DNA of 64,000 nucleotides, taken from the NCBI GenBank assembly GCA_027658995.1, contig JAQDQK010000003.1, forward strand, positions 144,663-208,662. Reading direction: 5' to 3'. The translations under genes were made by a program, and so were the position numbers. The notes beneath the pieces are model-generated. The model was given only the letters and a program-made list of their open reading frames with translations, searched no databases and had not been told where the DNA came from. The stretch's first letter is position 1, and each line of letters starts with the position of its first letter. Below, one piece after another: positions 32,991-48,038 of the stretch. The stretch is from Propionibacteriaceae bacterium AM104-82 (GTDB taxonomy: Bacteria; Actinomycetota; Actinomycetes; Propionibacteriales; Propionibacteriaceae).

Positions 32991-33812
32991 GTGAGCCACA
33001 TCGAGATCAAGTCCCTTGACGAACTGCGCCTGATGCGCAGGGCGGGCCTTGTGGTCTCCGAGGGGCTCCAGGCGATGTGCGGCGCGGCCGCCGTCGGCGT
33101 CACCACCGGCGAGCTCGACCAGATCGGCCGCGACGTGCTCGCCCGCAACGACGCCACCTCCTCGTTCCTCGGCTACGGCGCCGAGTACGGGGCGCCGTTC
33201 CCCGGGGTGGCATGCATCTCGGTCAACGACGAACTCGTGCACGGCATCCCTGGCGACCGCGCGCTGGTCGACGGCGACGTCGCGTCCATCGACTTCGGTG
33301 CCATCGTCGAGGGCTGGCACGGCGACGCGGCGCGCACCATCATCGTCGGCACCCCCGACCCCGCCGACGTGGCCCTGATCGAGGCGACCCGCGAGGCCTT
33401 CTGGGCAGGCGCGCTCGCCGTCCGCGACGGCAACCGCATCGGTGACGTCTCGAAGGCCATCGAGGGCTACGTGAAGCGCCTCCCGACCCGCTACGGGACG
33501 CTGCGCGAGTACACCGGTCACGGCATCGGCAGCGAGATGCACATGAGCCCGGACGTGCCCAACTGGTACCGCCCGCGCCCCACGCCGCGGCTGCGGGTCG
33601 GCATGGCCATCGCCATCGAGCCGATGCTGACCACCGGGACACACCAGACCCTCGAACTCGACGACGAATGGACCGTCGTCAGCAGGGACGGCTCCCGCGG
33701 CTCCCACTGGGAGAACACGGTCGCCGTCACCCCCGGCGGCGCCTGGGTGCTCACCGAGGAAGACGGCGGCGCGGCACGGCTCGGCGACGCGTTCGCCCCG
33801 CTCGCCGATTGA
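32991..33812 (+). CDS. map: Methionine aminopeptidase, type I
   Basis: The 273-residue product removes initiator methionine. The metal and substrate motifs of the pita-bread fold are present: VNDELVHGIPG, SIDFGAIVEGWHGDAART and GHGIGSEMHMSPDVPNW. The start is GTG 32991, 2 bases after adk. A terminal Glu-rich EPML and WENTVAVT match the late metal ligands. Confidence 0.97.
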   Translation: MSHIEIKSLDELRLMRRAGLVVSEGLQAMCGAAAVGVTTGELDQIGRDVLARNDATSSFLGYGAEYGAPFPGVACISVNDELVHGIPGDRALVDGDVASIDFGAIVEGWHGDAARTIIVGTPDPADVALIEATREAFWAGALAVRDGNRIGDVSKAIEGYVKRLPTRYGTLREYTGHGIGSEMHMSPDVPNWYRPRPTPRLRVGMAIAIEPMLTTGTHQTLELDDEWTVVSRDGSRGSHWENTVAVTPGGAWVLTEEDGGAARLGDAFAPLAD

Positions 33813-33834
33813 GGCCTGTCCTATGATGGGGGCC

Positions 33835-34197
33835 ATGGCGCTGCCCCCGAGTTCGAAGTACCTTCAGCGATCCGGCGACCCCGTTGACGACGTCGAACGC
33901 GAGTCCCTGACGCAACGCCTCAACGCCGCCTTCGCGGACGGACGGATCACCCACGACGAGTACGCCGAGGGGATGGACACCATTTACGCCGCGGGCAAGC
34001 TCGGCGACCTGGTGCCCGTGATCGAACGGCTGCCCGCAGCCGCGGACAACACCCCGGCGATCGTGCAGCAGGGCGGCGTGCCTGCAGGCAACGTCAGCCA
34101 GCCGCGCGACCTGGCCCCGTTCGCCGTGGCCGTCGGGGTCGTCGGCATCGCGCTGATCGCGGTCATCGCCGTACTCGTGGCCGTGCTGCTGTTCTGA
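33835..34197 (+). CDS. DUF1707 domain membrane protein
   Basis: The product of about 120 residues has a DUF1707 SHOCT-like helical domain (about residues 12-60, ESLTQRLNAAFADGRITHDEYAEGM), a short linker and one C-terminal transmembrane helix (about 96-119). It may regulate or tether a membrane complex; no function is established. I place the start at ATG 33835: TATGAT at 33822-33827 lies exactly seven bases before it, pointing to a leaderless mRNA. An in-frame ATG at 33823 lies inside that hexamer. Confidence 0.75.
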   Translation: MALPPSSKYLQRSGDPVDDVERESLTQRLNAAFADGRITHDEYAEGMDTIYAAGKLGDLVPVIERLPAAADNTPAIVQQGGVPAGNVSQPRDLAPFAVAVGVVGIALIAVIAVLVAVLLF

Positions 34198-34252
34198 GCC
34201 AGGCCCGTCGTAGGCTGGGCCCCGCCGCGAGGGGAGGAGGTGGGAACTAGCG

Positions 34253-35410
34253 ATGCAGAACTGGTCGCACGAGGCCGACGACGCCCCACCCCCCGCCGCA
34301 CCCGGTCCGGCCCTTGACCGACCCCCGCCGCCCCAGGCCCCGCCGCCCCGGCTCTCCCAGGACGCCTGGCGCCAGGTGCCGACCCAGCAGGCCCAGCAGC
34401 GGCCGCTCGCCTGGCAGGCGGCTCCGCCGGAGCCCGGCCCAGGGGCACTCACCCGGATCGGCATCGCCGCGACCTCCCTGCTCGTCGCGGGCGCCTTCGT
34501 GGTCGTGGGCATGTACCTCGCGGAGCGGCGCACCAGCACCACGGTCGACTCGCCGCCGCCGGTCGCCGCCCCCACGCCGACGCCCAGCCGCGTCGTCACC
34601 CCCTCGCCGACGAGCCCCAGCCCCACGCCGAGCCTCGCGCCGAGCCCCACCTCGACGCCGTCGGTCACGGTGAGCGCCGACCCCGGCGGCAGGTCCTGGA
34701 CGTTGCCGGAGCGGGCCTGGGAGCCGCTGCCTGCCGCCGACCCCGAATCGCCGTTGTACGCCCTGCAGGCCACGCCGCTCGACGACCTGCCGCCCGTCAC
34801 CCTGACCGGCTGCCCGGAGCCGGGACGCACCGGCAGCCAGGACGAGTGGAAGGAGGCCGTGCGCGGCCAGTGGTCGTGCGTGCACGCCGCCTGGATGCCC
34901 GTCTTCGAGCAGCTCGGCTGGTCAGTCGTCGAGCCCGAGGTGCAGTTCTACCCGGGCGCGGGCTCCAAGAGCGAGTGCGGCTACCTCTCGGCTCCCGCCT
35001 TCTACTGCTCCTCCGGCGACGGGACCGTCTACTTCGGCCAGGAGCACTTCGAGATGGCCGCCACCTGGGACCTGTCGGTCAACGAGATGGTCAACCACGA
35101 GTACGGCCACCACATCCAGAAGCTTGCGGGCATCACGGCGGCGAAGCTTGCGATGCCGCCGCGCAACGAGTTGGAGCGCCGCTCAGAACTGCAGGCCACC
35201 TGCTGGTCGGCCATGATGACCTATCACAACCGTTCGTTCGGGTTCAACGCCGATGACCTTGCCTCCTGGAACGAGCGGCTCGACACCATGCTGATCGACT
35301 CGGTGCACGGCACCCGCGAGTCGCTGACCTACTGGGGCACCCGGGGCCTCTACGCGGCGACTGTGGCAGACTGCAACACCTGGGTAGTGGACGCGGATCA
35401 GGTCACGTGA
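34253..35410 (+). CDS. Membrane-anchored neutral zinc metallopeptidase (PF04228), copy 1
   Basis: The 385-residue product has a Pro-rich cytoplasmic N-terminus, one transmembrane helix (about residues 66-86), a Pro/Thr/Ser-rich linker (about 95-140) and an exported YpfJ-like peptidase domain. The zinc site is HEYGHH (His282, Glu283, His286), with the RSELQATCW segment that supplies the third ligand, and conserved cysteines (CPEPG, CGYLS, CSS). The substrate is unknown. The binding site GGGGAGGAGG at 34231-34240 has a long spacing. It is followed after 10 bases by a paralogue. Confidence 0.85.
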   Translation: MQNWSHEADDAPPPAAPGPALDRPPPPQAPPPRLSQDAWRQVPTQQAQQRPLAWQAAPPEPGPGALTRIGIAATSLLVAGAFVVVGMYLAERRTSTTVDSPPPVAAPTPTPSRVVTPSPTSPSPTPSLAPSPTSTPSVTVSADPGGRSWTLPERAWEPLPAADPESPLYALQATPLDDLPPVTLTGCPEPGRTGSQDEWKEAVRGQWSCVHAAWMPVFEQLGWSVVEPEVQFYPGAGSKSECGYLSAPAFYCSSGDGTVYFGQEHFEMAATWDLSVNEMVNHEYGHHIQKLAGITAAKLAMPPRNELERRSELQATCWSAMMTYHNRSFGFNADDLASWNERLDTMLIDSVHGTRESLTYWGTRGLYAATVADCNTWVVDADQVT

Positions 35411-35420
35411 GGAGGCGCCG

Positions 35421-36512
35421 GTGACGCAGGGCAACTGGCCCCAACCCCCTGGACACCCCGGCTGGAACAGGCCAGGGTCGCTCCAATCGGGGTGGCAGCA
35501 GCCGCAGCAACCGCAGCGCGCGTTCCAGCAGCCCCAGTGGGGGCCGCCGCCGAACCAGTGGCAGGGCGGCTACCGTCCGCCCCCGCCGCCGCCGCCGCGC
35601 CGCTCCGGGGGGTTCGGCAAGACGATCTTCGTGCTCGTCGGGGTCGCGATCGTCCTGGTGCTCGCCGTCAACGTGTTCCGCGCCGTCGCGGATGTGCTGC
35701 AGCCTCTTGTGCCAGGCATCAGCCCCAGCCCCTCTGCCTCCGAGCCGCGTGAGCCGGAGCCGGTCGTCGAGCCAGCAGAGCCGGGGGAGACCAACCCTGG
35801 GCTGCCGCCGCGCACCTGGGAGGAACTGCCTGCTCCCGACTCGAGCGACCCGGACTGGATGACGCTGCAGCAGAGCGCGATCTACGCTCAGCCGGTGCCG
35901 CTGCTCGAGGGCTGCCCCGAGCCGGAACAGGCCTACGACATGGGCGACCTCGAGCGCATCGCGACCGGCCAGATGGAATGCATCCAGGCCGCGTTCAAGC
36001 CGATGCAGGCCGCGCTCGGCTACTCAACAGACGACATCCCCATCTACTTCTACGAGGGCCGCACCGTCGACACTCCGTGCGGCCAGGTCTCGGCGCCCGC
36101 GCTGTACTGCTCGACGCAGGGCGGCGCCATCTACTTCGGCGAGGACAGCCTCAACGGGGCCAGTTGGATGGACTTCGGGGTCAAGGACGTCACGGGCCAC
36201 GAGTACGGACACCACCTGCAGGCGCAGGCGGGCATGTTCCAGGCCGAGTACGCCGTCGGGCAGGGCAACGAGTCGGCCCGCCGGATCGAGTTGCAGGCCA
36301 CCTGCTGGGGCTACGCCATGATGGCCCACGACCCGACGCAGTCGGTCGGTGAGGCGTCCCTGGTGGAGTTCGAGCAGTACCTGCGCGCCACCATCGAGGA
36401 CGGCATCCACGGGTCGAAGGACTCGATGGCCTACTGGGGCATCCGCGGCCTGTACTCGGCCGACATGGGCAACTGCAACACCTGGACCGCCGCGTCGGAG
36501 GACGTCGACTAG
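35421..36512 (+). CDS. Membrane-anchored neutral zinc metallopeptidase (PF04228), copy 2
   Basis: The 363-residue product is a tandem paralogue of the preceding protein: Gln/Pro-rich N-terminus, Pro9-type stretch (about residue 55), one transmembrane helix (about 68-90) and a peptidase domain with HEYGHH (His260, Glu261, His264), RRIELQATCW and matching cysteines. The start is GTG 35421 after TGAGGAGG. Its TAG stop lies in the palindrome CTAG, which also makes the TAG stop of the convergent GH3 gene. Confidence 0.85.
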   Translation: MTQGNWPQPPGHPGWNRPGSLQSGWQQPQQPQRAFQQPQWGPPPNQWQGGYRPPPPPPPRRSGGFGKTIFVLVGVAIVLVLAVNVFRAVADVLQPLVPGISPSPSASEPREPEPVVEPAEPGETNPGLPPRTWEELPAPDSSDPDWMTLQQSAIYAQPVPLLEGCPEPEQAYDMGDLERIATGQMECIQAAFKPMQAALGYSTDDIPIYFYEGRTVDTPCGQVSAPALYCSTQGGAIYFGEDSLNGASWMDFGVKDVTGHEYGHHLQAQAGMFQAEYAVGQGNESARRIELQATCWGYAMMAHDPTQSVGEASLVEFEQYLRATIEDGIHGSKDSMAYWGIRGLYSADMGNCNTWTAASEDVD

Positions 36513-38326
36513 GCGCTGAAGCCCGCCGGGAACAGCGGATCGTCGAAGCCGACCTGATCCTCCGGATGCCTGCGCACCGAGGCCATCGAGCGGGGCAGGT
36601 CGAACGGAAGCCTTCCCACCGGCGCCACCTCGCCGAGCAGCGCGTCGACGAGGGCGTCCCCGCTGGTGCCGTAGTCGGCAACCAGAACAGAGGCCACGTC
36701 GAGCAGCGGCGTCAGCACGGCCGGCCGGTCGAGGAACACGTCGATCACGACGGGGCAGTGCCGGGCGATCCGCTCGAGTCGCACCCGCAGGCCGGGCTGG
36801 AAGTCGAGCGAGCCCTGATGGAACCAGCTCTCGAGGAAGAGGTCGTCGCGCGGCTCAAACGGGGCGGCGAGGCGCACGAGGGCGATGCTCGCCTCCTCCG
36901 GGCTGTCGACGACGGTGCCGAGCCGGGCGGCGGCCTCGCGGGAGATGCCCTCGGCGTAGACCCGCTGGTCCGCGGCGAGGGGAAGCAGGTCGCGGCCGGT
37001 CAGCACCGTCACGGAGGCCGACTGTGCCCGCCTCCCGTCGCGCACGAAGTCCTCGCGCCCGACGATGCCGGTCGCGGCCTCCTCGTCGACGTAGGGGTCG
37101 TCGAAGAGCCCCAACTGGAACTTCACGCGCAGCAGCCTGCGCGCCGACTCGTCGACGCGCGACTCCGGGATGCGTCCGGTCGCCACGAGGCCGGCGAGCA
37201 GGTCGACGCATTCCTCGCCTCCGAACTGGTCGCAGCCCGCGTTCAGCAGCGCCTCCATCCGGCCGGGCGGGTCGAGGTGCTCCACGCCCCACGCACGGGC
37301 GGGCAGCACCTGGTCGCCGACGTGGTTGTCGTTGATGAGTTCCCAGTCGGAGAGCACGACACCGTCGAAGCCGAGCACGCCGCGCAGCAGGTCGGTGACG
37401 ATGGCGCGGTTGTAGCCGAAGCCGACCTCGTCTGCCTCGATGCCGCGCAGCGTCAGGCCGATCGGCTTGGAGTAGTAGGGCATCACCGCGCTGACGCCCG
37501 CGTCGATCGCGGCGGGGAAGGGCTGCAGGTGCGACTCCTGCGAGCCGCTCGGGTAGACCTGGGCGGCGCCGTAGGGGAAGTGGGAGTCCTCGCCTCCCTT
37601 GACGGTGCCGCCGCCCGGGAAGTGCTTGGCGGTGCAGGCGACGCTTCCGGGGGCGAGGCGTTCGCCCTGCATCCCCGCGAGATAGGCCACGCCGAGCCGG
37701 GTGACGACGTCGGGGTCCTGGCCGTAGGTCTGTGCCTGGCGCGCCCAGCGGGGCTCGGTCGCCAGGTCGAGGGTCGGGTGCAGCGCCGCCCGGATCCCGA
37801 CGGCGGTGTACTCCTGCCGGGCGATGTCTGCGAAGTGGCGCACCAGCGACTCGTCGCGAAGCGCGGCGAGCCCGAGCATCTCGGGCCACTGCGAGAAGGC
37901 GCCCGCAGAGAAGGAGGCGCCCGCGTTCTCCGCGAACGAGTGGCGCGGGTCGCTCGAGATGGTGACGGGGATGCCGTGCGGGGTCTGCTCGGCGATCTCC
38001 TGCACCGCGTTGTGCCACCGGGCCGCGGCGGCCGCCTCGCCCAGGTGGTGCACGTTGAAGTGGTTGAGCAGTTTGCCCGTGACCACCTCGGCGGTGCCCG
38101 ACTTGCTGATGGCACCCGCCCCCTCCAGCACCGTCCCGTCCGGCCCCGCCTCGATGACGGTGTGGAACATCAGGCCGATCTTCTCGGCAAGCGTGAGCCT
38201 CCCGAGCAGGTCGTCGACGCGTTCCTCGACGTCGCGGCGGGGGTCCTCGTACGGGTCGAGGACGCCGTTGCGGTTCAGGTCGCGGTACCGCTGGCCTGAC
38301 GGGTCGGTGCTGAAGGTGGCGGGCAT
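36509..38326 (-). CDS. GH3 beta-glucosidase
   Basis: The 605-residue product has the GH3 N-terminal TIM barrel with the nucleophile motif VVLSDW (Asp327), the AKHFPGGG substrate motif and the C-terminal alpha/beta sandwich, but no fibronectin-like third domain. It has no signal peptide, so it acts in the cytoplasm. It probably takes glucose from sophorose-like or other short beta-glucosides. It is the last gene of the importer operon, 12 bases after the PF10091 glucanase gene, with a GAGGAGA binding site. Confidence 0.9.
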   Translation of the reverse strand: MPATFSTDPSGQRYRDLNRNGVLDPYEDPRRDVEERVDDLLGRLTLAEKIGLMFHTVIEAGPDGTVLEGAGAISKSGTAEVVTGKLLNHFNVHHLGEAAAAARWHNAVQEIAEQTPHGIPVTISSDPRHSFAENAGASFSAGAFSQWPEMLGLAALRDESLVRHFADIARQEYTAVGIRAALHPTLDLATEPRWARQAQTYGQDPDVVTRLGVAYLAGMQGERLAPGSVACTAKHFPGGGTVKGGEDSHFPYGAAQVYPSGSQESHLQPFPAAIDAGVSAVMPYYSKPIGLTLRGIEADEVGFGYNRAIVTDLLRGVLGFDGVVLSDWELINDNHVGDQVLPARAWGVEHLDPPGRMEALLNAGCDQFGGEECVDLLAGLVATGRIPESRVDESARRLLRVKFQLGLFDDPYVDEEAATGIVGREDFVRDGRRAQSASVTVLTGRDLLPLAADQRVYAEGISREAAARLGTVVDSPEEASIALVRLAAPFEPRDDLFLESWFHQGSLDFQPGLRVRLERIARHCPVVIDVFLDRPAVLTPLLDVASVLVADYGTSGDALVDALLGEVAPVGRLPFDLPRSMASVRRHPEDQVGFDDPLFPAGFSA

Positions 38327-38338
38327 GGTTCTATCTCC

Positions 38339-39880
38339 TCAGTCGAGCGGTGCGAAGACCTCTGGCGCGATCACTGGACGCAGCGTGCGGGCCACCTCAC
38401 CCTCGGTGAAGTAGCGGCGCAGCGCCCCGTCGGTGAGCACGTTGCCGAGCGCGCCCATGATCATGGCCTGGTCGAGAGACAGGTGGCGGCGCGCGACCTG
38501 CCCGGACTTCGTGGCGATGGCGTCGAAGAATCCGCCGGGGCCGTAGGAGTCGAAGTCGGCCTCGATCCGTGCCAGGTTCTCGTAGGCCTCGCGCGGCTCG
38601 TGCATCATCGCCAGGAACGCGGCGTGCGGGGTGACGACGCCGTCGCCGTAGGTGGGCTCCGGCTCGTCGCGCACATGGTCGGTGTGCTCGATGTCGGAGA
38701 AGTAGCCGTCGGGACGCATCCCGAGCGCCTCGACGCCCCACTCGCTGTACCCGCCCGCGGGGTGGCTTGCGGGGGAGAAGCCCCAGTAGCCGTAGTTGTC
38801 CATGCCGTGGATGCGCTGCACCGCGACGTGGCGGGGGTGGTTCTTGCCCCAGGAGTTCGGCGCCCAGGTCTCCTCGGGCACGAACACGTTGGGCATCAGT
38901 TCCTCGAACATCGAGCCGCCCCAGCCGGGCACCGTCTGGTGGCCCAGATAGTCGTAGGCGCCCTCATAGACGTCGACGCCCTCATAGGTGTGCCACTCTC
39001 CGACGGGGATGATCTCCTGCCAGTCCCAGTCCGGCGGGAAGGTCCGCCACGCCTGGTAGTAGGCCTGCGCGGGGACCTGCCCCTTCGCGATGCCCAGGTA
39101 GGTGGTGATCCTGGTCTCGGAGACGATCGTGTCGTAGTGGTGGTCGCGGGTGTACCAGACGCCGCGGCCCTCACCGATCAGGTCCCGCTCGATCGTGGGC
39201 GGAGGGGAGGGCAGCCTGGTCGGCTCGGACAGGTAGTAGCCGCCGTAGTTGAGGTAGGGCCGCGAGTTGGTCGGGTCGGCGAACACGTCGAAGCGCATCG
39301 CGTCGAACAGTTCTCCCGCCACCTTGCGGTTGCCCTTGTCGCCGTTGCGCACCACGAGCAGGGCGGCGCCGAGCCAGGCGGCGTCGATGCTCGAGACGAA
39401 CGGCTCGACGGCGTTGCCGTCCTCGGGCCAGTTGAGCACCACCGAGCCGTCGCGCGGGTCGTACCAGTTGAAGTACATGCCGGCCGCGTCGTGGTGGGTC
39501 ATCTTCTTCAGCGTGCGCAGCGTCTGGCGGATCCGGTTGTTCGCCTCGCCCGGCGTGATGATCCGCAGGTCGCGGGCGACGAGCGTGCTCCACAGGTAGC
39601 CGCCGATGTTGGTCGGCGAGGTGTAGTGCGCGTTGGTGGCGAGGTCTCCCGAGATGTTGTCGGAGATCAGCCCTGTCCTGCGGTCGGTCATAGCGACCAT
39701 CGAGGCCCACGTGTCGCGCGCCCAGCGCAGCAGCGTGTCCCGGTCGGTCCCCTCGGGGGTGGGTAGTGGTTTCCTCGCGTCGGCGAGTGCGACCGAGGGG
39801 AGGCTCGCAAGGGCCGCGGCCGTGAGGCCTCCTGCGAGCGCGGTGCGTCTGCTGATCGGGGTCGGGTCAGGTCGGTTCAT
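38339..39880 (-). CDS. Tat-exported PF10091 glucanase, GH144-like (candidate endo-beta-1,2-glucanase)
   Basis: The 513-residue product starts with a Tat signal (SRRTALAGG, about residues 9-17, then a hydrophobic stretch and VALADA cleavage site). The rest is the (alpha/alpha)6 'glycoamylase' domain PF10091, with GGSMFEELMPNVFVPEETW (about 320), GYWGFSPASHPAGGYSEWG (about 370) and YGPGGFFDA. Characterised PF10091 enzymes include the GH144 endo-beta-1,2-glucanases. It sits between ABC permease genes and GH3 in one operon, facing a GH94 phosphorylase, which supports beta-1,2-glucan as substrate. Start ATG has AAGGAG. The exact linkage is inference. Confidence 0.8.
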   Translation of the reverse strand: MNRPDPTPISRRTALAGGLTAAALASLPSVALADARKPLPTPEGTDRDTLLRWARDTWASMVAMTDRRTGLISDNISGDLATNAHYTSPTNIGGYLWSTLVARDLRIITPGEANNRIRQTLRTLKKMTHHDAAGMYFNWYDPRDGSVVLNWPEDGNAVEPFVSSIDAAWLGAALLVVRNGDKGNRKVAGELFDAMRFDVFADPTNSRPYLNYGGYYLSEPTRLPSPPPTIERDLIGEGRGVWYTRDHHYDTIVSETRITTYLGIAKGQVPAQAYYQAWRTFPPDWDWQEIIPVGEWHTYEGVDVYEGAYDYLGHQTVPGWGGSMFEELMPNVFVPEETWAPNSWGKNHPRHVAVQRIHGMDNYGYWGFSPASHPAGGYSEWGVEALGMRPDGYFSDIEHTDHVRDEPEPTYGDGVVTPHAAFLAMMHEPREAYENLARIEADFDSYGPGGFFDAIATKSGQVARRHLSLDQAMIMGALGNVLTDGALRRYFTEGEVARTLRPVIAPEVFAPLD

Positions 39881-39913
39881 GACTGCTCCTTCTTGTCCTT
39901 CTGGCAGGGGGTG

Positions 39914-40744
39914 TTACTTGATCCCAGTGGTGGCGATTCCCTGAATGAAATGCCGCTGGAAAATCAGGAAGACGACGAGCACGGGCAGCACGACGACGGT
40001 TGCGCCCGCCATCAGCAGGCCGTACTCGGTCTGGTTCTGGCCCGTGGAGTAGAGCGCGAGCGCGACGGGCAGCGTGTAGGAGTTGTTCGTCTGGGCCACC
40101 ACGAGCGGCCACAGGAAGTTGTTCCAGCTTCCGAGGAAGGTCAGGATGCCGAGCGTTGCCATCGCGGGGCCGAGCAACGGGAGGATGATCCTCAGGAAGA
40201 TCTTCATCTCGCCTGCCCCGTCGATGCGGGCCGCCTCGACCAGGTCCTTCGGGAGCCCCATGATGAACTGGCGCATCAGGAAGACGCCGAACGGGCCCAC
40301 CAGGAACGGCAGGATCAGCCCGGGAAGCGTGTTGACAAGCCCCATGTTGGCGACAAGCACGAACAGCGGGACGAACGTCACCACTCCGGGGATCATCAGG
40401 GTGCCGAGGATCAGCGCGAAGATGACCTTCTTGCCGCGGAAGTTCAGCATCGCGAGCGCGTAGCCGACCATCGAGCAGAACAGCAGGTTGCCGACGGTGA
40501 CCGCGACCGCGACAAGGGTCGAGTTCGCGAAGTAGGTGCCGAACGAGAGCCTGCTGAACAGCGAAGAGAAGTTGTCGAGCGTCGGGTTCTCCGGCAGCCA
40601 CGTCGGCGGGACCTGACGCAGTTCGGAACTGGTCTTGAACGAGCCGAGCACCATCCACACGAACGGCGTGACCACGACGAGCAGCGCAACGGTCAGCAGG
40701 AGGTAGAGCCACCAGCGACGGCGGAATCCGGTGTCCTGGGTCAT
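39914..40744 (-). CDS. Sugar ABC transporter permease, MalG-like (beta-glucan importer)
   Basis: The 276-residue product has six predicted helices and the EAA loop EAARIDGAGEMKIFLRIILP. The start is ATG 40744, with GGGAG eight bases upstream; open codons before it overlap the neighbour permease. It is 2 bases after the MalF-like gene. Confidence 0.93.
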   Translation of the reverse strand: MTQDTGFRRRWWLYLLLTVALLVVVTPFVWMVLGSFKTSSELRQVPPTWLPENPTLDNFSSLFSRLSFGTYFANSTLVAVAVTVGNLLFCSMVGYALAMLNFRGKKVIFALILGTLMIPGVVTFVPLFVLVANMGLVNTLPGLILPFLVGPFGVFLMRQFIMGLPKDLVEAARIDGAGEMKIFLRIILPLLGPAMATLGILTFLGSWNNFLWPLVVAQTNNSYTLPVALALYSTGQNQTEYGLLMAGATVVVLPVLVVFLIFQRHFIQGIATTGIK

Positions 40745-40746
40745 GC

Positions 40747-41691
40747 TCAGTCTCCCTTCTCGGACAGGAACTTGAACTGGACCGCCGTGATGATGGCGAT
40801 CACCACGAAGATCAGGTAGCTCAGCGCCGCGGCGAAGCCGTAGTTGCCGAAGCTGAACTGCTGGTAGGTGTACATCGAGGCCGAGATGGTGCTGTTGAGC
40901 GGGCCGCCCTTCGTCATCACGAACGGCTCCTCGAAGAACTGCAGGTAGCCGATGGTGGTGGTCACCATCACGAACAGCACGGTCGGGCGGATGATCGGCA
41001 GCACCACGTTGCGGAACCGCTGCCACGCGCCCGCCCCGTCGATGGAGGCGGCCTCGAGCAGTTGGGTGGGCACGGCCTGCAGGCCTGCCAGGAAGATGAT
41101 CATGCCGGTGCCGAAGTTGCGCCACACGGCCATCGCGATCAGCGAGGGCATCGCCCAGGTCGTCGACCCGAGCCAGTTGGGTCCGTCGATGCCGATCCAG
41201 CCGAGCACGGTGTTGACCAGGCCGCTGTCGGGGTGGAGCAGGAAGCGCCACACGACGGCGACCGCCACGATCGAGGTGATCACGGGGGTGTAGAAGCCAA
41301 GCCGGAAGAAGGCCCGGAACCTCGAGATGCCGTTGTTGAGCGCGATGGCGGCGGCCAGCGCGACGATGATGGTCAGCGGCACCCCGACCACCACGAAGTA
41401 GATGGTGTTGAACGCGGCCTGCTGGAAGACGGGGTCCGCGAACGCCTTCGCGTACTGCTCGAACCAGACGAAGTCCACCGCGAAGGGCGTGCGCAGGTCC
41501 TTGTTCCTGATGTCGGTGAACGAGAAGAACACCGACTGGATCACCGGCCACGCGGTGAACACCAGGAACAGCAGCAGGAACGGGAGGGTGAGCAGCCAGC
41601 CCGCCCGTTCCTCCAGCCGGGCGCCGCCGGATCTGGAGGAACGGGAGCGGGGGACTGCCTTCCGCGGCGTTGCCGCAGTCGGCGCGGACAT
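40747..41691 (-). CDS. Sugar ABC transporter permease, MalF-like (beta-glucan importer)
   Basis: The 314-residue product has six helices after a basic N-terminus (about 30 residues) and the EAA loop EAASIDGAGAWQRFRNVVLP. It starts 2 bases after the binding-protein stop. No ATPase is encoded, as in the alpha-glucoside cassette. Confidence 0.93.
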   Translation of the reverse strand: MSAPTAATPRKAVPRSRSSRSGGARLEERAGWLLTLPFLLLFLVFTAWPVIQSVFFSFTDIRNKDLRTPFAVDFVWFEQYAKAFADPVFQQAAFNTIYFVVVGVPLTIIVALAAAIALNNGISRFRAFFRLGFYTPVITSIVAVAVVWRFLLHPDSGLVNTVLGWIGIDGPNWLGSTTWAMPSLIAMAVWRNFGTGMIIFLAGLQAVPTQLLEAASIDGAGAWQRFRNVVLPIIRPTVLFVMVTTTIGYLQFFEEPFVMTKGGPLNSTISASMYTYQQFSFGNYGFAAALSYLIFVVIAIITAVQFKFLSEKGD

Positions 41692-41693
41692 GG

Positions 41694-42986
41694 TTACTCT
41701 CCGGTGCCGATCGAGTCGGCCTGCGCCTGCGCGGCCTTCATGGCGTCCGCGCCCGAGAGGCCCTGCTTGGCGACCTTCTCGATCTCGTTGTCGAAGGACT
41801 CGATGACCTGCTCGAAGCTGGGGAACGTCGGCGGCACCTTGGCCGTCTTGAGGGCCTCACCGAACTTGGCGAGCTTCTCGTCCTTGGCCAGGGTGTCGTC
41901 GTCCCAGGCGGACTGCAGCGAGGGCAGGTCGCTCGTCAGGCCGTACCACTTGATCTGGGTCTCCGGCTGGCTCAGCCACTCGACAAGCGTCCAGGCGGCG
42001 TCGCGGCTCTTGGTCGCCTTGAAGACGGCCAGGTTGGAGCCGCCGATGAACGAGGAGGACTGGCCGCCGTCGGCGGTCGGGATCGGGGCGACATCGTACT
42101 TGTCCGCGAACGCGTCGTCGCCGTCCTGCTTGGCGAGGTCCTCGACGAGGCTCATCATCCAGGGGCCGGAGATGAACATCGGCACGGCGCCGCTGACGAA
42201 GTCGGCCTCGGTCTGGCCCTCCGGCGGGTTCGGGTCGGAGATGCCGTCCTTGAAGTAGGAGCCGTAGTAGTCGACGGTGGAGACCATCTCCGGGGTATCG
42301 AAGGTGTAGCCCTTGTCGTCGGCGATCTCGGCGCCGCGCGACCAGGCGAGCGGGAGAACGGTCTGCCAGGATCCGGTGCGGCCCGGCTGGAGGCTGATGC
42401 CCCACTTCACGCCGTCCTGCTCCTTCATCTTGGCGGCCATCTGCTTGAACTCGTCCTGGCCGGTGGGCACCTCGGTGACGCCCGCCTTCTCGGCGATGTC
42501 GGTGCGGTAGTAGGCCATCCGCGTCTCGACGTACCACGGCACCGCATAGGAGGTGCCGCCCACCTTCGTGGTGTCGACGGCGCCAGGGAAGAAGCCGTTG
42601 AGGTCGATCGAGCTGGGGGTGGGATCGAGGGCGTCCATGCCGACGAACTCGCCCATCCACGTCGTGCCGACCATCGCGACGTCAGGGGTGGTGCCTGCCG
42701 TGATGGAGTTGACGAACTTGTCGTGCGCCGAGTCCCAGGGGACCGGCGTGACGTTGACCTTGATGTCGGGGTGGGCGTCGGTGAACTCCTTGACGAGCTC
42801 GGGCAGCTTCTCGCCCTCGGCGCCCATCGCCCACACCTCGAGGGTGCCGGACGCCTTTGAGGTGTCGACGGCCTGCGCGGTGGGGGTGTCACCGCCGCCC
42901 CCGTTGTTGCCCTCGTCGCGGCCGCAGCCGGTCAGTGCGAGGGCGGTTCCGGCCGCGAGTGCGACCACCTTGAGGCTCAGACGCAT
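41694..42986 (-). CDS. Sugar ABC transporter substrate-binding lipoprotein (beta-glucan importer)
   Basis: The 430-residue product has a lipoprotein signal with lipobox ALTGC (Cys21), a Gly/Asn/Asp linker and a family 1 solute-binding fold (WAMGAEGEKLPELVKEF start). In this locus it probably binds sophoro-oligosaccharides, as the binding protein of the Listeria 1,2-beta-oligoglucan locus does. It is the first gene of the operon SBP-permeases-glucanase-GH3, with AGGAGG before the ATG and the LacI operator about 105 bases upstream. Confidence 0.92.
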   Translation of the reverse strand: MRLSLKVVALAAGTALALTGCGRDEGNNGGGGDTPTAQAVDTSKASGTLEVWAMGAEGEKLPELVKEFTDAHPDIKVNVTPVPWDSAHDKFVNSITAGTTPDVAMVGTTWMGEFVGMDALDPTPSSIDLNGFFPGAVDTTKVGGTSYAVPWYVETRMAYYRTDIAEKAGVTEVPTGQDEFKQMAAKMKEQDGVKWGISLQPGRTGSWQTVLPLAWSRGAEIADDKGYTFDTPEMVSTVDYYGSYFKDGISDPNPPEGQTEADFVSGAVPMFISGPWMMSLVEDLAKQDGDDAFADKYDVAPIPTADGGQSSSFIGGSNLAVFKATKSRDAAWTLVEWLSQPETQIKWYGLTSDLPSLQSAWDDDTLAKDEKLAKFGEALKTAKVPPTFPSFEQVIESFDNEIEKVAKQGLSGADAMKAAQAQADSIGTGE

Positions 42987-43080
42987 GGTTCCTCCTGAAG
43001 TCTGATGGCCTGGGCCGGCGACTACCTCGGGCGACTGCCGTGTCTTGAGGGACGTCGTTGAGCCTCAGCCTGTCATGGAT

Positions 43081-43101
43081 GCGCTTACCGTAAGCGCTTA
43101 C
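43081..43101. promoter_or_regulatory. LacI operator of the beta-glucan importer operon
   Basis: GTAAGCGCTTAC (43090-43101) is a perfect 12-base palindrome with the CG centre typical of LacI-family sites. It overlaps a second palindrome, GCGCTTAC-C-GTAAGCGC (43081-43097), giving three half sites in 21 bases. The same 12 bases occur in front of the phosphorylase gene. Confidence 0.85.
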
Positions 43102-43158
43102 ATTGGACGCTACACCGTCTCGGGGTGAGTCGCAAGTGTTTGGCGGAAGATCCCCCGG

Positions 43159-44154
43159 TCAGGGGCAGCCGCAGGACTGGCGCAGCACCACCGTCGTCGG
43201 GAGTCGGCGCCCGGGTTCGGCGGCGGAGTGCCCCGCGAGAAGTTGTCCGATGCGGTCGGCGACCAGGCGTCCCAGTTCGCGTACGGGTTGGCGCACCGTC
43301 GTCAACCCTGGCGCGATGTAGCGGGCGGCCATCATGTCGTCCCAGCCGGTCACCGAGACCTGTCCCGGCACGTCGATGGGGCCGCCGCGCAGCGCCCGCA
43401 TGATGGCGAGTGCGAGTTCGTCGTTCGCGCAGACCAGCGCGTCCGCCTCGAGTTCGCCGACGAGCATCGCCCGGGCGACGCCCGCCCCCTCGGACTCGAC
43501 CGCGTGGCACGGCACCGGCGGGCGGGGGGTCAGGCCGCGTTCGAGGTGTGCCTCGACGAAGCCCCGGTGCCTGCCCTCGATGTCGGGGGCCAGCGCCGGG
43601 TTGCCGACGAACAGCAGCGAGGTCCTGCCGTGCACGTCGATCAGGTGGCCCGTCAGGTCGCGCGCGCTGGCCAGGTTCTCGGTCGAGAAGGAGTCCGCGG
43701 CGGCGTCGCCTGCGATCATCACGACGGGTATCTTGCGGCGGACCGCATCGAGGGTGACCTGCGCCACGTCGGCGCCTGCCTGGACCGCGAGGGCGTCGAC
43801 GCGGCCTGCCAGCCTGCGCACCGCCTGGTCGACGTGGGTGCGGTCCTTCGTCAGGGTGACCACGACGCTGGCCTCGCGTGCCGCGGCCGCCGCCTCGAAG
43901 CCGCTGAGCAGTTCGGCGTAGTACGGGCCGCGCAGTTCGTAGAGAACAAGGCCGAAGGCCTCGTTGGTGCGGGCCGCCAGCGAGCGGGCCGCTCCCGTGG
44001 GGACGTAGTTGAGCGCCTCGACCGCCGTCATGACGCGTTCGCGGGTGGCGGGGGAGACCACGTCGGGCTTGCTGAGCACGCGGGAGACGGTCGCGATCGA
44101 CACGCCTGCCGCCGCGGCGACCTCGTAGATCGTGTGCCTGCCCATCTCTGCCAT
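43159..44154 (-). CDS. LacI-family repressor of the beta-glucan locus
   Basis: The 331-residue product has the LacI helix-turn-helix (TIYEVAAAAGVSIATVSRVL, about residues 8-27) and effector domain. It lies between the importer operon and the divergent phosphorylase gene; both have GTAAGCGCTTAC, so it is the obvious regulator. The start could be ATG 44154 or ATG 44145; neither has a strong binding site. The inducer is likely a sophoro-oligosaccharide, by inference. Confidence 0.9.
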   Translation of the reverse strand: MAEMGRHTIYEVAAAAGVSIATVSRVLSKPDVVSPATRERVMTAVEALNYVPTGAARSLAARTNEAFGLVLYELRGPYYAELLSGFEAAAAAREASVVVTLTKDRTHVDQAVRRLAGRVDALAVQAGADVAQVTLDAVRRKIPVVMIAGDAAADSFSTENLASARDLTGHLIDVHGRTSLLFVGNPALAPDIEGRHRGFVEAHLERGLTPRPPVPCHAVESEGAGVARAMLVGELEADALVCANDELALAIMRALRGGPIDVPGQVSVTGWDDMMAARYIAPGLTTVRQPVRELGRLVADRIGQLLAGHSAAEPGRRLPTTVVLRQSCGCP

Positions 44155-44228
44155 GTCGCTCTCGTTTCACGCTCAAGGCCCCGTTCGGCGGGGCCGGTCA
44201 GAGCCTATTGCCTGATGACTACCGATCA

Positions 44229-44258
44229 TTGCACCACCGGGGCGTAAGCGCTTACAGT
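44229..44258 (+). promoter_or_regulatory. Promoter and LacI operator of the GH94 gene
   Basis: TTGCAC (44229-44234), 18 bases and TACAGT (44253-44258) form a promoter. The operator GTAAGCGCTTAC at 44244-44255 covers the spacer and the first bases of the -10. The ATG begins exactly seven bases after the -10, so the mRNA is probably leaderless. Confidence 0.8.
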
Positions 44259-44265
44259 TTGGGTC

Positions 44266-47200
44266 ATGAGCACTCCAACGGCGTTGTTGCATCCGGCCAC
44301 CCAGCTCGAGGACAAGGTCGCGGGCCTGTGGCTCCGCGAGCGCGCGGATGGCTCCTGGCTTCCCCATTCGCTGACCGGAGGGGGTGAGGGGCAGGCGGGG
44401 CCGCTGCACTGGCGCGCCACCCGCACCGCCCTCGAGGGGCGCGAAGGCTGGTCCCGGCAGGTCGAGGTCGTCAACACCGGCGACCGGGAGGTCCGGTTCG
44501 ACCTGGTCGCCGTGGAGGACCCCTCGCTCTCGCCTGCGGCGGTGCTGGACGCCAACCGGTTGTACCCCTCCCAGTACCTCGACCTCACCCCGGTCGACCT
44601 GGGCGAGCGCGGGACCGCCGTCGCGATCCGGCAGAACATGCCAGGCCCGCGCGCGCCGTGGGCCCTGATCGGCTCCTGGACCTCCGCGGTCGGCTGGGCC
44701 AGCGACGTCACGCAGTTGACGGGCCGCGGCCTCCCGGAGGGCGCCCCATGGCCGGGCCTCAACGCCGACCTGCCGAGCAGCAGGCTGCAACAGGAACACT
44801 CCGCCGTTGCGCTGCAGAGCGCGCCCGTCACGCTCGCGCCGGGGGAGCGCTGGGAGGGCGGCATCTTCGTGCTGCTCGTCGACGACCACCCCGCGGCGAC
44901 CTCGCCCGCCGACGCGGCCCGTGCCGAGGGTCTGCGGCCCGGCCGGGCGCTGCCCGAGGTGCGCGAGTCCGCCGCCTCGCTCGTCGGCCGCGACACCCCG
45001 GGCCTGTCGGCGGACGACCCGAGCCCCGAGGTGCTCGCCGCCCTCTCCCCAGGGGAGCGGCGACACGTCGAGGACCTCGACGGCCGCGAGGTCAGTTGGT
45101 TCACACCCGAGGGCGACCACGTCGTCACCGCCGCGAAGCAGCGCGCGGTGCCACGGCCCCACGGCCAGATCCTCCGGCCGCTGACGGGCCTGCTTCCCGA
45201 CCCGACCGACGTGACCTGCACCGTCTGGATGGACGGCGGCTTCTGCTCCCACCTGACGCTCGGTCACGCCGCGCTCGGCCGGATCCTCGCCGCCAAGGAG
45301 ACGCCGCTTCCGATCGGCAGGATCCACGGCGTCCGGATCGCCGTCAACGAGGGCGACGGGTGGCGACTGCTCGGCACGCCGTCGGCCTGGCGCTCCGGCC
45401 TCGACCACGCCACCTGGATCTACGCATCAGGCGAGCGCGTCATCCGCGTCGAGACCCGCGGCCCGGGCGCCGACGGCGCGGTCGCCGTCTCGGTGCACAC
45501 GAGCGGGGGAGAACCGCTCCCGGCGCTCGTCATCCTCGCGCTCAACTGGGTGGGCGCACCCGGCGCGACCGGCGGCGTCTCCGTGACGGGCGAGACCCTC
45601 ACCGTCGCCGCTCCCGAAGGCGCCCTGCTCGCCGACGCCTCCCTGACCGTCGACTTGCCCGCCGACGCGCAGGTCGGCGGGGATGAGGCGCTGTTCTCCG
45701 ACGGCGTCGGCCGCGGCGAGCCCGTCGTGACCGCCCGCGTCCCGGCGCTCGCCGACTGGTCGCTGCTGCTGCGCCCCGGGGTACCAGGCGGAACCGAGCG
45801 CGGGGGGTCCGAGGGCTGGGCCGACGTGCACGACCGGATCGCCATCTCCGCCGAGGGCGGGGCGGCGGCCACCGACGAGGTCGCGCGGATCGACCAGGCG
45901 TGCGGGTGGTTCGCCCATGACGCGCTGGTGCACTACCTGTCGCCGCGCGGCCTCGAGCAGCACACCGGCGGGGCGTGGGGCACCAGGGACGTCTCGCAGG
46001 GGCCTGTCGGGCTGCTGCGCGCCTGGGGCGAGCACGCCGCCTGGCGCGACCTGCTCCTGATCGTCTTCCGCGCCCAGCACGAGCGGGGCGACTGGCCGCA
46101 GGCCTTCGACTTCCTGCCCGACTACCGCCGCGACGAGGTCGCCGACTCACACGGCGACGTCGTCTACTGGCCCCTGCTCGCGCTCGGGCAGTATCTCGTC
46201 GCCACCGGCGACGCGGGCATCCTCGCCGAACCGGTCGCGTTCACCGGCGACGGCGCACCGGGCGGCGAGGCTACCCTCGCCGACCACCTCCGTCGCGCGC
46301 TCGACGCCGTCGAGGCGACCTTCGTGACGGGCACCGCGCTGCCCGCCTACGGCCACGGCGACTGGAACGACTCCCTGCAGCCCGCCAGCCCTGACCTGGC
46401 GCGCGCGATGGTCTCCACCTGGACCGTCGTGCTGCAGGCCGAGGCCCTCACCGTCCTCGCGCAGGGCGTCGGGGCGGCTGCCCCCGACATCGCCGAACGC
46501 GCCGCAGGCATCGCCGAGCGCGGCACCGCCGACCTGCGCCGCGAACTCCTCGTCGACGGGGTGCTCGCGGGCTACGGAGTGCGGGAGGACTCGGGGCTGC
46601 GCCCGCTGATCCACCCGCGCGACACCGGGACGGGGCTGACCTACTCGGTGCTCGCCATGATCCACGCCATCGCGGGCGATCTCCTGACGCCGGAGGAGGC
46701 CTCGCGCCACCTCGACCTGATCGCCGAACACCTGACAGGACCCGACGGTGTGCGACTGTTCGACCGCCCCGTCGCCTACCGCGGCGGGCCCATGGAGGTC
46801 TTCCAGCGGGCCGAGGCGAGCACCTTCTTCGGCCGCGAGATCGGCCTGATGTACATGCACGCGCACCTGCGCTACGCCGAGGCCCTCGCCCGCGTCGGCG
46901 ACGGCAGGGGACTGCTGCGCGCCCTCGCGCAGGCGGTCCCGATCGGGATCCGCGACCAGGTCGCCACCGCGACCCCGCGACAGGCCAACACCTACGCCTC
47001 CAGCTCGGACGCCGCCTTCGCCGACCGCTACGAGGCGGCCGCCGACTACCACCGCGTCGCGGCGGGGGAGGTCGCGCTCGACGGCGGGTGGCGCGTCTAC
47101 TCGTCCGGGCCCGGGCTGTTCCTGGAGGTGCTGACCCAGCGGATGCTCGGCGTCCGGCACGCGGGGGCCGAGGTGGAACTCGACCCGGTCATCGACCCCG

Positions 47201-47415
47201 ACCTGCGCGGCCTCGACGCAGCCCTTCCGCTGCTCGGCGGTGCCGTCCGGGTCGAGATCGTGGCGGGCCCGCTCGGGCACGGCGTCGCCTCGGTGCACGC
47301 CGACGGAAGGCCGCTCGCCACCCGGGCGCTCACCAACCCCTACCGCGCGCCCGGCGTCGCGGTCGCGGCCGAGGAACTGCGCGGCGCCGGGGTGCTGCGG
47401 ATCGTCACCGGCTGA
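44266..47415 (+). CDS. GH94 phosphorylase, likely 1,2-beta-oligoglucan phosphorylase
   Basis: The 1049-residue product has an N-terminal beta-sandwich region (1 to about 520), an (alpha/alpha)6 catalytic domain (about 540-960) with GDWND at residues 698-702 (general acid region) and a C-terminal jelly roll. GH94 cellobiose or chitobiose phosphorylases have about 800 residues; the longer form and the GDWNDSLQP version point to 1,2-beta-oligoglucan phosphorylase of the Listeria type. It would split sophoro-oligosaccharides with phosphate to glucose-1-phosphate. There is no signal peptide. Its stop converges on a YciI-like gene. The alternative is a laminaribiose or cellodextrin phosphorylase. 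Confidence 0.82.
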   Translation: MSTPTALLHPATQLEDKVAGLWLRERADGSWLPHSLTGGGEGQAGPLHWRATRTALEGREGWSRQVEVVNTGDREVRFDLVAVEDPSLSPAAVLDANRLYPSQYLDLTPVDLGERGTAVAIRQNMPGPRAPWALIGSWTSAVGWASDVTQLTGRGLPEGAPWPGLNADLPSSRLQQEHSAVALQSAPVTLAPGERWEGGIFVLLVDDHPAATSPADAARAEGLRPGRALPEVRESAASLVGRDTPGLSADDPSPEVLAALSPGERRHVEDLDGREVSWFTPEGDHVVTAAKQRAVPRPHGQILRPLTGLLPDPTDVTCTVWMDGGFCSHLTLGHAALGRILAAKETPLPIGRIHGVRIAVNEGDGWRLLGTPSAWRSGLDHATWIYASGERVIRVETRGPGADGAVAVSVHTSGGEPLPALVILALNWVGAPGATGGVSVTGETLTVAAPEGALLADASLTVDLPADAQVGGDEALFSDGVGRGEPVVTARVPALADWSLLLRPGVPGGTERGGSEGWADVHDRIAISAEGGAAATDEVARIDQACGWFAHDALVHYLSPRGLEQHTGGAWGTRDVSQGPVGLLRAWGEHAAWRDLLLIVFRAQHERGDWPQAFDFLPDYRRDEVADSHGDVVYWPLLALGQYLVATGDAGILAEPVAFTGDGAPGGEATLADHLRRALDAVEATFVTGTALPAYGHGDWNDSLQPASPDLARAMVSTWTVVLQAEALTVLAQGVGAAAPDIAERAAGIAERGTADLRRELLVDGVLAGYGVREDSGLRPLIHPRDTGTGLTYSVLAMIHAIAGDLLTPEEASRHLDLIAEHLTGPDGVRLFDRPVAYRGGPMEVFQRAEASTFFGREIGLMYMHAHLRYAEALARVGDGRGLLRALAQAVPIGIRDQVATATPRQANTYASSSDAAFADRYEAAADYHRVAAGEVALDGGWRVYSSGPGLFLEVLTQRMLGVRHAGAEVELDPVIDPDLRGLDAALPLLGGAVRVEIVAGPLGHGVASVHADGRPLATRALTNPYRAPGVAVAAEELRGAGVLRIVTG

Positions 47416-47425
47416 CGGGCCAGGC

Positions 47426-47707
47426 TCAGGCCAGAGAGCCGATCACCGGGTTCCAGGGCTGGATGCGGCGCTCTGCGATGAGGCCCTCCTGCCAGAACGG
47501 ATCCGCGTTGAGTTGGGAGTGGACCAGGTCCTCGCTGTCGGCGGAGAAGATCAGCAGCGCCCCCGGCGGGACAGAGCCGGGGTAGGGGCCGCTGGCCACC
47601 AGCGTGTCGCCGACCAGCGACGAGAGGTAGGCCCGGTGCCGCGGGCGGACCAGGTCGAGCGCATCGGAGTCCGTGACATAGGTGTAGTGCACCGCGAAGT
47701 AGCTCAT
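47426..47707 (-). CDS. YciI-like domain protein
   Basis: The 93-residue product belongs to the YCII family (ferredoxin-like dimeric fold): FAVHYTYVTDSDALDLVRPRHRAYL with the conserved His, and LLIFSADS plus DPFWQEGL later. The family includes small hydrolases and dehalogenase-like proteins; the role is unknown. It lies between the beta-glucan locus and infA. Confidence 0.85.
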   Translation of the reverse strand: MSYFAVHYTYVTDSDALDLVRPRHRAYLSSLVGDTLVASGPYPGSVPPGALLIFSADSEDLVHSQLNADPFWQEGLIAERRIQPWNPVIGSLA

Positions 47708-47736
47708 GGCGGTAAGGCTATCCCCGGGTCGGGTAT

Positions 47737-47765
47737 TTGTTTGCGGGCGCTCACGAGCGTAAACT
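47737..47765 (+). promoter_or_regulatory. infA promoter
   Basis: TTGTTT (47737-47742), 17 bases and TAAACT (47760-47765) make a near-consensus promoter. The leader is about 45 bases. Confidence 0.7.
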
Positions 47766-47816
47766 CACCTGTTGGAGTATCATCCGGCGCCGCCGGAGCG
47801 AGAAGAATGAGAGTAC

Positions 47817-48038
47817 ATGGCGAAGAAAGAAGGAGCCCTCGAACTCGAGGGCACCGTGGTCGAGGCCCTGCCCAACGCGATGTTCCGCGTCGAGCTGGCC
47901 AACGGTCACAAGGTTCTCACCACCATCAGCGGCAAGATGCGCCAGCACTACATCCGCATCCTGCCCGCCGACCGCGTCGTCGTCGAGCTGTCGCCCTACG
48001 ACCTGACGCGAGGCCGCATCGTCTACCGGCACAAGTGA
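47817..48038 (+). CDS. infA: Translation initiation factor IF-1
   Basis: The 73-residue product begins [20 protein letters not shown] and has the S1-like OB fold of IF-1, with the [16 protein letters not shown] motif. It blocks the A site during initiation. It is transcribed alone: promoter upstream, terminator downstream. Confidence 0.98.

Follow-up and report, generated by a model that had tools for sequence, protein, structure and literature searches.

The producers of beta-1,2-glucans are mostly Gram-negative bacteria, in which these sugars have periplasmic, symbiotic or virulence roles, and few complete routes for their catabolism have, to our knowledge, been described. The present analysis concerns a 64-kb stretch of the Propionibacteriaceae bacterium AM104-82 genome (contig JAQDQK010000003.1, positions 144,663 to 208,662), referred to in full as the window, in which seven genes are proposed to form a single-locus, LacI-controlled beta-1,2-glucan utilisation system, a reading to which we attach a probability of about 0.86. 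SkSGL, the founding member of glycoside hydrolase family 193 (GH193), is active on beta-1,2-glucan and inactive on every other polysaccharide examined, including laminarin, lichenan, carboxymethyl (CM)-cellulose and barley glucan (PMC12102758, Table 1), and acts on the polymer as an endo-enzyme with Sop4-8 as products (PMC12102758). LpSOGP, a 1,2-beta-oligoglucan phosphorylase (SOGP) of family GH94, catalyses a reversible reaction, requires chains of at least three units, does not phosphorolyse cellobiose or laminaribiose, and is inactive on sophorose (PMC5309861, partial text). Neither of the two characterised SOGPs accepts fewer than three sugar units, and sophorose remains at the end (PMC5309861, partial text); a sophorose-cleaving partner is therefore expected. 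In Listeria innocua, the GH3 glucosidase Lin1840 has a pocket formed by Arg572, Tyr583 and Trp271 and also cleaves laminaribiose (PMC4757417, partial text).

The seven genes and their products

The initial annotation had placed seven genes in this part of the window, and open reading frame calls and Pfam agree with it for every gene, position and strand. The features are as follows.

36509..38326, minus strand: GH3 beta-glucosidase, 605 amino acids (aa), PF00933/PF01915, no signal peptide seen by eye
38339..39880, minus strand: predicted GH193 endo-beta-1,2-glucanase, PF10091, twin-arginine-like signal, E255 as proposed general acid
39914..40744, minus strand: ATP-binding cassette (ABC) sugar permease of MalG/UgpE type, 276 aa, PF00528, ATG start
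40747..41691, minus strand: ABC sugar permease of MalF/UgpA type, PF00528
41694..42986, minus strand: solute-binding lipoprotein, proposed sophoro-oligosaccharide binder, LTGC lipobox by eye, Lin1841 match
43090..43101, no strand: proposed LacI operator GTAAGCGCTTAC, a perfect palindrome upstream of the transport, GH193 and GH3 genes
43159..44154, minus strand: LacI-family regulator, proposed local repressor, PF00356 and PF13377
44244..44255, no strand: proposed LacI operator GTAAGCGCTTAC, 10 bp upstream of the GH94 start codon
44266..47415, plus strand: predicted GH94 SOGP, 1049 aa, with SOGP_N, SOGP_2nd and GH94 domains, D702 as catalytic acid by alignment

In the direction of transcription, the minus-strand genes run from LacI through the binding lipoprotein, the two permeases and the PF10091 enzyme to GH3, and the GH94 gene diverges from LacI. 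The permease genes do not overlap, one ending at 40747 and the next having its ATG at 40744. Pfam found no ATPase, glycosyltransferase or exporter gene within the set of seven; a UgpC/MsiK-type ATPase above the family cut-off is encoded once per genome, outside the locus, in three relatives. Ornithinimicrobium tianjinense (L022) and the relatives G001, G021 and G017 have the same seven genes in this order (some of those in G001 and G017 being split by frame breaks), a recurrence that chance would not produce.

The GH94 protein is assigned by its sequence to the SOGP group. Its SOGP_N and second SOGP domains score 96 bits (PF21958) and 67 bits (PF21250), both above cut-off, its best match in the PDB is LpSOGP (5H3Z, 425 bits), and 16 of the 17 residues named for substrate, phosphate and catalysis in the available part of the LpSOGP description are identical. 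This bears out the proposal of a long 1,2-beta-oligoglucan phosphorylase, and a placing with cellobiose phosphorylases was not seen, chains of those enzymes reaching at most 44 bits. Other GH94 specificities were rejected on the same comparison.

The PF10091 protein had been described as GH144-like, a label that has to be replaced, as it is classified here as a GH193 member. It is 52% identical to SkSGL over 507 columns (491 bits), and its E255 aligns to SkSGL E246, the proposed general acid; the SkSGL sequence was taken from genome G746, in which the E246 numbering is reproduced exactly. This glutamate is invariant in alignments of 27 and of 9 sequences. A profile of the 27 sequences scored 105-117 bits against GH189 in the PDB and 29 bits against GH144 CpSGL chains, no GH144 chain occurred among the four PDB matches of the single sequence, and in both sequence and fold the protein stands closer to GH189 than to GH144. 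For the long helix and the extra helices that mark GH189, the comparison extended to the aligned span, 473 residues in the PF10091 model vs 569 in TiCGS. GH144 was rejected on the SkSGL identity, profile scores, PDB matches and the comparison with TiCGS, the Foldseek ranking being insufficient alone. Export is probably through the twin-arginine translocation (Tat) pathway, the Tat pair being invariant in the 27-row alignment.

Among 501 matched PDB sequences, the top match of the binding lipoprotein is Lin1841 (229 bits), the Listeria sophoro-oligosaccharide binder, so that the window shares with the Listeria-type locus the pairing of an SOGP with a Lin1841-like binding protein. The Listeria type of GH3 was not found. 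The best PDB match of the GH3 protein is 9UL7 (807 bits) vs 93 bits for Lin1840, the Lin1840 type was rejected on these scores, and because of them the Lin1840 pocket cannot be assumed in the window enzyme. Its best NCBIfam match, an exo-1,3/1,6-glucosidase model, reaches 157 bits, far under the cut-off of 1330. The organism of 9UL7 is Clavibacter michiganensis according to a BLAST table (PMC13021860, partial text), and a literature search found no paper on 9UL7 activity or on a Clavibacter GH3 with sophorose. The GH3 product is proposed to be a cytoplasmic sophorose hydrolase, its substrate being suggested by its conserved neighbours. A GH3 tree was left unused, the row for L078 forming a very long branch.

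Predicted operators, proposed route and genomic site

The palindrome GTAAGCGCTTAC starts at 43090, upstream of the binding-protein gene, and at 44244, 10 bp ahead of the SOGP start codon, and within one mismatch it occurs nowhere else in the window. The base composition predicts 0.0015 exact copies where two are observed. Counting every sequence, the window has 41 perfect palindromes of 12 bp, so it is the repetition and the conservation of GTAAGCGCTTAC that carry the weight. Both sites are kept in L112, L113, L114 and L115, where 9-10 bp separate the palindrome from the SOGP start. Whole-genome scans, made for exact copies only, found the 12-mer twice in each of the near-complete genomes G001, G013, G017 and G021, both times in the locus, and its reversed control pattern 0, 1, 0 and 0 times, respectively. 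Since the exact copies in these four relatives lie only at those two places, the regulator looks like a local LacI protein without other exact-match targets, governing a single-locus regulon through the predicted operators. In O. tianjinense the corresponding positions carry one exact copy and one with a single mismatch, and G009 has one exact copy outside the locus and single-mismatch sites only within it.

According to the proposed route, the exported GH193 enzyme would cut beta-1,2-glucan to short sophoro-oligosaccharides, which the Lin1841-like lipoprotein, the two permeases and an unlinked UgpC/MsiK-type ATPase would import. SOGP would then shorten chains of at least three units by phosphorolysis until sophorose is left, an ATP-saving reaction that yields glucose-1-phosphate, and the cytoplasmic GH3 would split the leftover sophorose to glucose. 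LacI may bind both GTAAGCGCTTAC sites and repress both units until imported sugar releases it. Sequence comparison establishes the family membership of GH193 and SOGP, the two conserved palindromes and the conserved gene order, whereas the activities, export, direction of flux, imported sugar, inducer and binding by LacI are inferred, and most of all what GH3 cleaves.

On one side the locus is bordered by secY-adk-map and then two zinc-peptidase-like genes, on the other by infA-rpsM-rpsK-rpsD-rpoA-rplQ (Pfam), with rpmJ read by eye between infA and rpsM. Flanks match, as far as the stretches reach, in five relatives (L112, L113, L114, L115/L021 and L118), and because of this the cluster is considered to have been inherited at the ribosomal-protein site in this lineage. 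At 33812-47817 the window carries the sugar locus and the two zinc-peptidase-like genes within the ribosomal-protein region, between map and infA. The latter genes form a PF04228-like tandem at 34253-36512, the second of them under the family cut-off, and have matches beside the locus in relatives.

Variants of the locus also exist. Tessaracoccus antarcticus-type relatives carry a colinear LacI-SBP-permease-permease-GH193-GH3-SOGP arrangement (SBP, solute-binding protein). Their SOGP, termed B-type (as in T. antarcticus L091 and in L099), goes with this other gene order and shares 39-41% identity with the A-type of the window. In a 29-row SOGP tree the two types form separate supported clades, joined by an unsupported fork, and SOGP may have been recruited twice independently within the genus. 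The colinear B-type loci L116, L117, L119, L091 and L099 have another palindrome, GCAAGCGCTTGC, directly before LacI. Six of the seven genes are kept in T. caeni (L021/L115), GH193 being absent, and this species is possibly a cross-feeder on oligosaccharides made by others.

Distribution and competing explanations

In 36 same-genus genomes, GH193 and SOGP were each found in 11 and both together in 10 (Fisher p 4.6e-7, uncorrected for kinship). In G036 they lie on separate contigs of a fragmented assembly. G032 was left out of the GH193 count, its match (E 2e-5) falling inside a 2840-aa frame. This frame, in stretch L120 (G032:C1:2996000-3008000), matches the GH193 query weakly and resembles cyclic beta-1,2-glucan synthases in length; a search of the stretch by tblastn at 1e-10 gave no match. 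Across the class, SOGP occurs in 6 of 394 genomes (two weak matches included) and GH193 in 46 of 394. G282 and G365 have both, far apart: G365 (L160 and L161) combines a GH193-importer-GH3 locus without SOGP with an SOGP beside another GH3, 31% identical to that of the window, the two loci being separated by about 350 kb of one contig.

Outside the genus, 41 GH193 neighbourhoods were compared (the 46 genomes minus G001, G305, G092, G363 and G335; seven are short, at contig ends), a match being counted if it exceeded 100 bits and lay no more than 7 kb from GH193. A Lin1841-like binding protein was present in 19, GH39 in 12, GH1 in 5 and a window-type GH3 in 2; SOGP occurred near GH193 in none of the 41, and 21 had none of these five. 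Pfam checks of five example proteins confirmed GH39 in three and GH1 in two. The 12 neighbourhoods in which GH39 stands beside GH193 and a Lin1841-like importer are L172, L173, L174, L175, L176, L179, L183, L191, L206, L207, L209 and L210. The three Pfam-checked GH39 genes encode 608-616 aa, and the nearest solved relatives of the copy in L175 are beta-xylosidases. GH39 beside GH193 is a candidate new beta-1,2-glucosidase. From the SOGP side, a scan of contigs gave at least 589 loci, and of the best 80 at least 9 have a GH193-like flank match and at least 4 the complete window-type set, the complete loci among the matches listed being O. tianjinense L022, T. antarcticus L091, an Ornithinibacter metagenome-assembled genome (MAG) L094 and a Propionibacteriaceae MAG L099. 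All seven queries were matched in Actinotalea L078, with GH3 only 33% identical. Altogether, a module of transport and GH193 recurs in Actinomycetes with varied finishing enzymes, GH39, GH1 and GH3.

The locus could serve another beta-glucan (laminarin, cellodextrins or mixed-linkage glucan), as might be suggested by the exo-1,3/1,6-glucosidase model matched by GH3 (157 bits, cut-off 1330) and by the activity of Lin1840 on laminaribiose (PMC4757417, partial text). However, GH193 and SOGP point to beta-1,2 linkages independently of each other, and SkSGL does not act on laminarin, lichenan, CM-cellulose or barley glucan (PMC12102758), which leaves this explanation very improbable. Short sophorosides or sophorolipids, compounds that carry sophorose, could also be the true food, with GH193 playing a minor role: the authors of the Streptomyces griseus study speculate on (alkylated) sophoro-oligosaccharides (PMC12369401, partial text), and the T. 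caeni locus has no GH193. We consider this unlikely, since LpSOGP is inactive on sophorose (PMC5309861, partial text), SkSGL endo-acts on polymer to give Sop4-8 (PMC12102758), and GH193 accompanies SOGP in 10 of the 11 SOGP-bearing same-genus genomes. It is scarcely credible that the GH94 enzyme runs synthetically and that the locus makes a beta-1,2-glucan. The SOGP reaction is indeed reversible (PMC5309861, partial text), and the discovery of Lin1839 led to a method for producing beta-1,2-glucan on a large scale (PMC12369401, partial text), but the locus also encodes an importer, a glucanase that looks secreted and a LacI regulator, and none of its seven genes encodes a glycosyltransferase or exporter.

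Utilisation of beta-1,2-glucan, the overall reading of the initial annotation, is therefore retained on the strength of GH193, SOGP and the Lin1841-like binder, with the GH144 label and the Listeria-type GH3 given up. Several observations weigh against it. The weakest link is GH3: because it lies outside the Lin1840 type, sophorose cleavage rests on context. Support from Lin1841 for sophoro-oligosaccharide binding is good but not exclusive, because 3UOR, a solved sugar-binding protein, comes second at 197 bits, close to Lin1841. The one mismatch among the 17 LpSOGP residues is G623, replaced by T567 in the window. Foldseek did not separate GH193/GH189 from GH144, ranking GH144 CpSGL (5GZK) above 8WY1, and the Tat pair is not invariant in the 9-row alignment, which includes the records of Actinotalea and SkSGL. 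In T. caeni (G013/L021) the locus is without GH193 and the genome without any PF10091 match, in a check that took in 34 of the 80 SOGP loci, and G009, a 60% complete genome, is positive for GH193 with no SOGP match.

Relation to described systems

Actinomycetes may share a beta-1,2-glucan chassis, made of LacI, a Lin1841-like importer and an exported GH193, into which finishing enzymes are plugged: GH1, one of which has been demonstrated in S. griseus, and elsewhere GH39, a 9UL7-type GH3, or GH3 with SOGP. We lean slightly towards this view. If it is true, GH39 and the 9UL7-type GH3 would each be an unreported beta-1,2-glucosidase, and the window would represent the energy-saving version, with GH3 and SOGP under a private two-operator regulon. 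The GH3 subgroup of the window and the GH39 group of other Actinomycetes are accordingly predicted to cleave sophorose, and these are the parts that specialists would most want tested. With GH193, importer, SOGP and GH3 under one regulator, a single cluster would suffice for testing the complete route. No description of GH193 and SOGP in one locus was found in the literature, including the available parts of PMC6627896 and PMC8565777, subscription literature being mostly beyond the search.

LpSOGP of Lachnoclostridium phytofermentans has the same domain plan and 16 of the 17 residues, and differs from the window enzyme in having G623 where the latter has T567. SkSGL of Sanguibacter keddieii, the GH193 founder, is alike in its 52% identity and general-acid position, but has a C-terminal Ig-like extension that the window GH193 lacks, and in its surroundings (19 kb) the other six window genes were unmatched at E 1e-10, a LacI-like open reading frame being present by eye. 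The nearest solved relative of the window GH3 is the 9UL7 beta-glucosidase of Clavibacter michiganensis. At the level of loci, Listeria innocua lin1839-lin1841 shares SOGP, a Lin1841-like binding protein of an ABC importer and a GH3 glucosidase, whereas the window adds an in-locus GH193 with an export signal and has a GH3 of another subgroup. Streptomyces griseus SGR_2422-2427 shares GH193 and the Lin1841-like ABC importer (PMC12369401, partial text); it finishes with the GH1 enzyme SGR_2426, SOGP not being mentioned in the available part of that source, whereas the window has SOGP and GH3. The window joins the Listeria and S. griseus locus designs, and each of its parts has a known relative.

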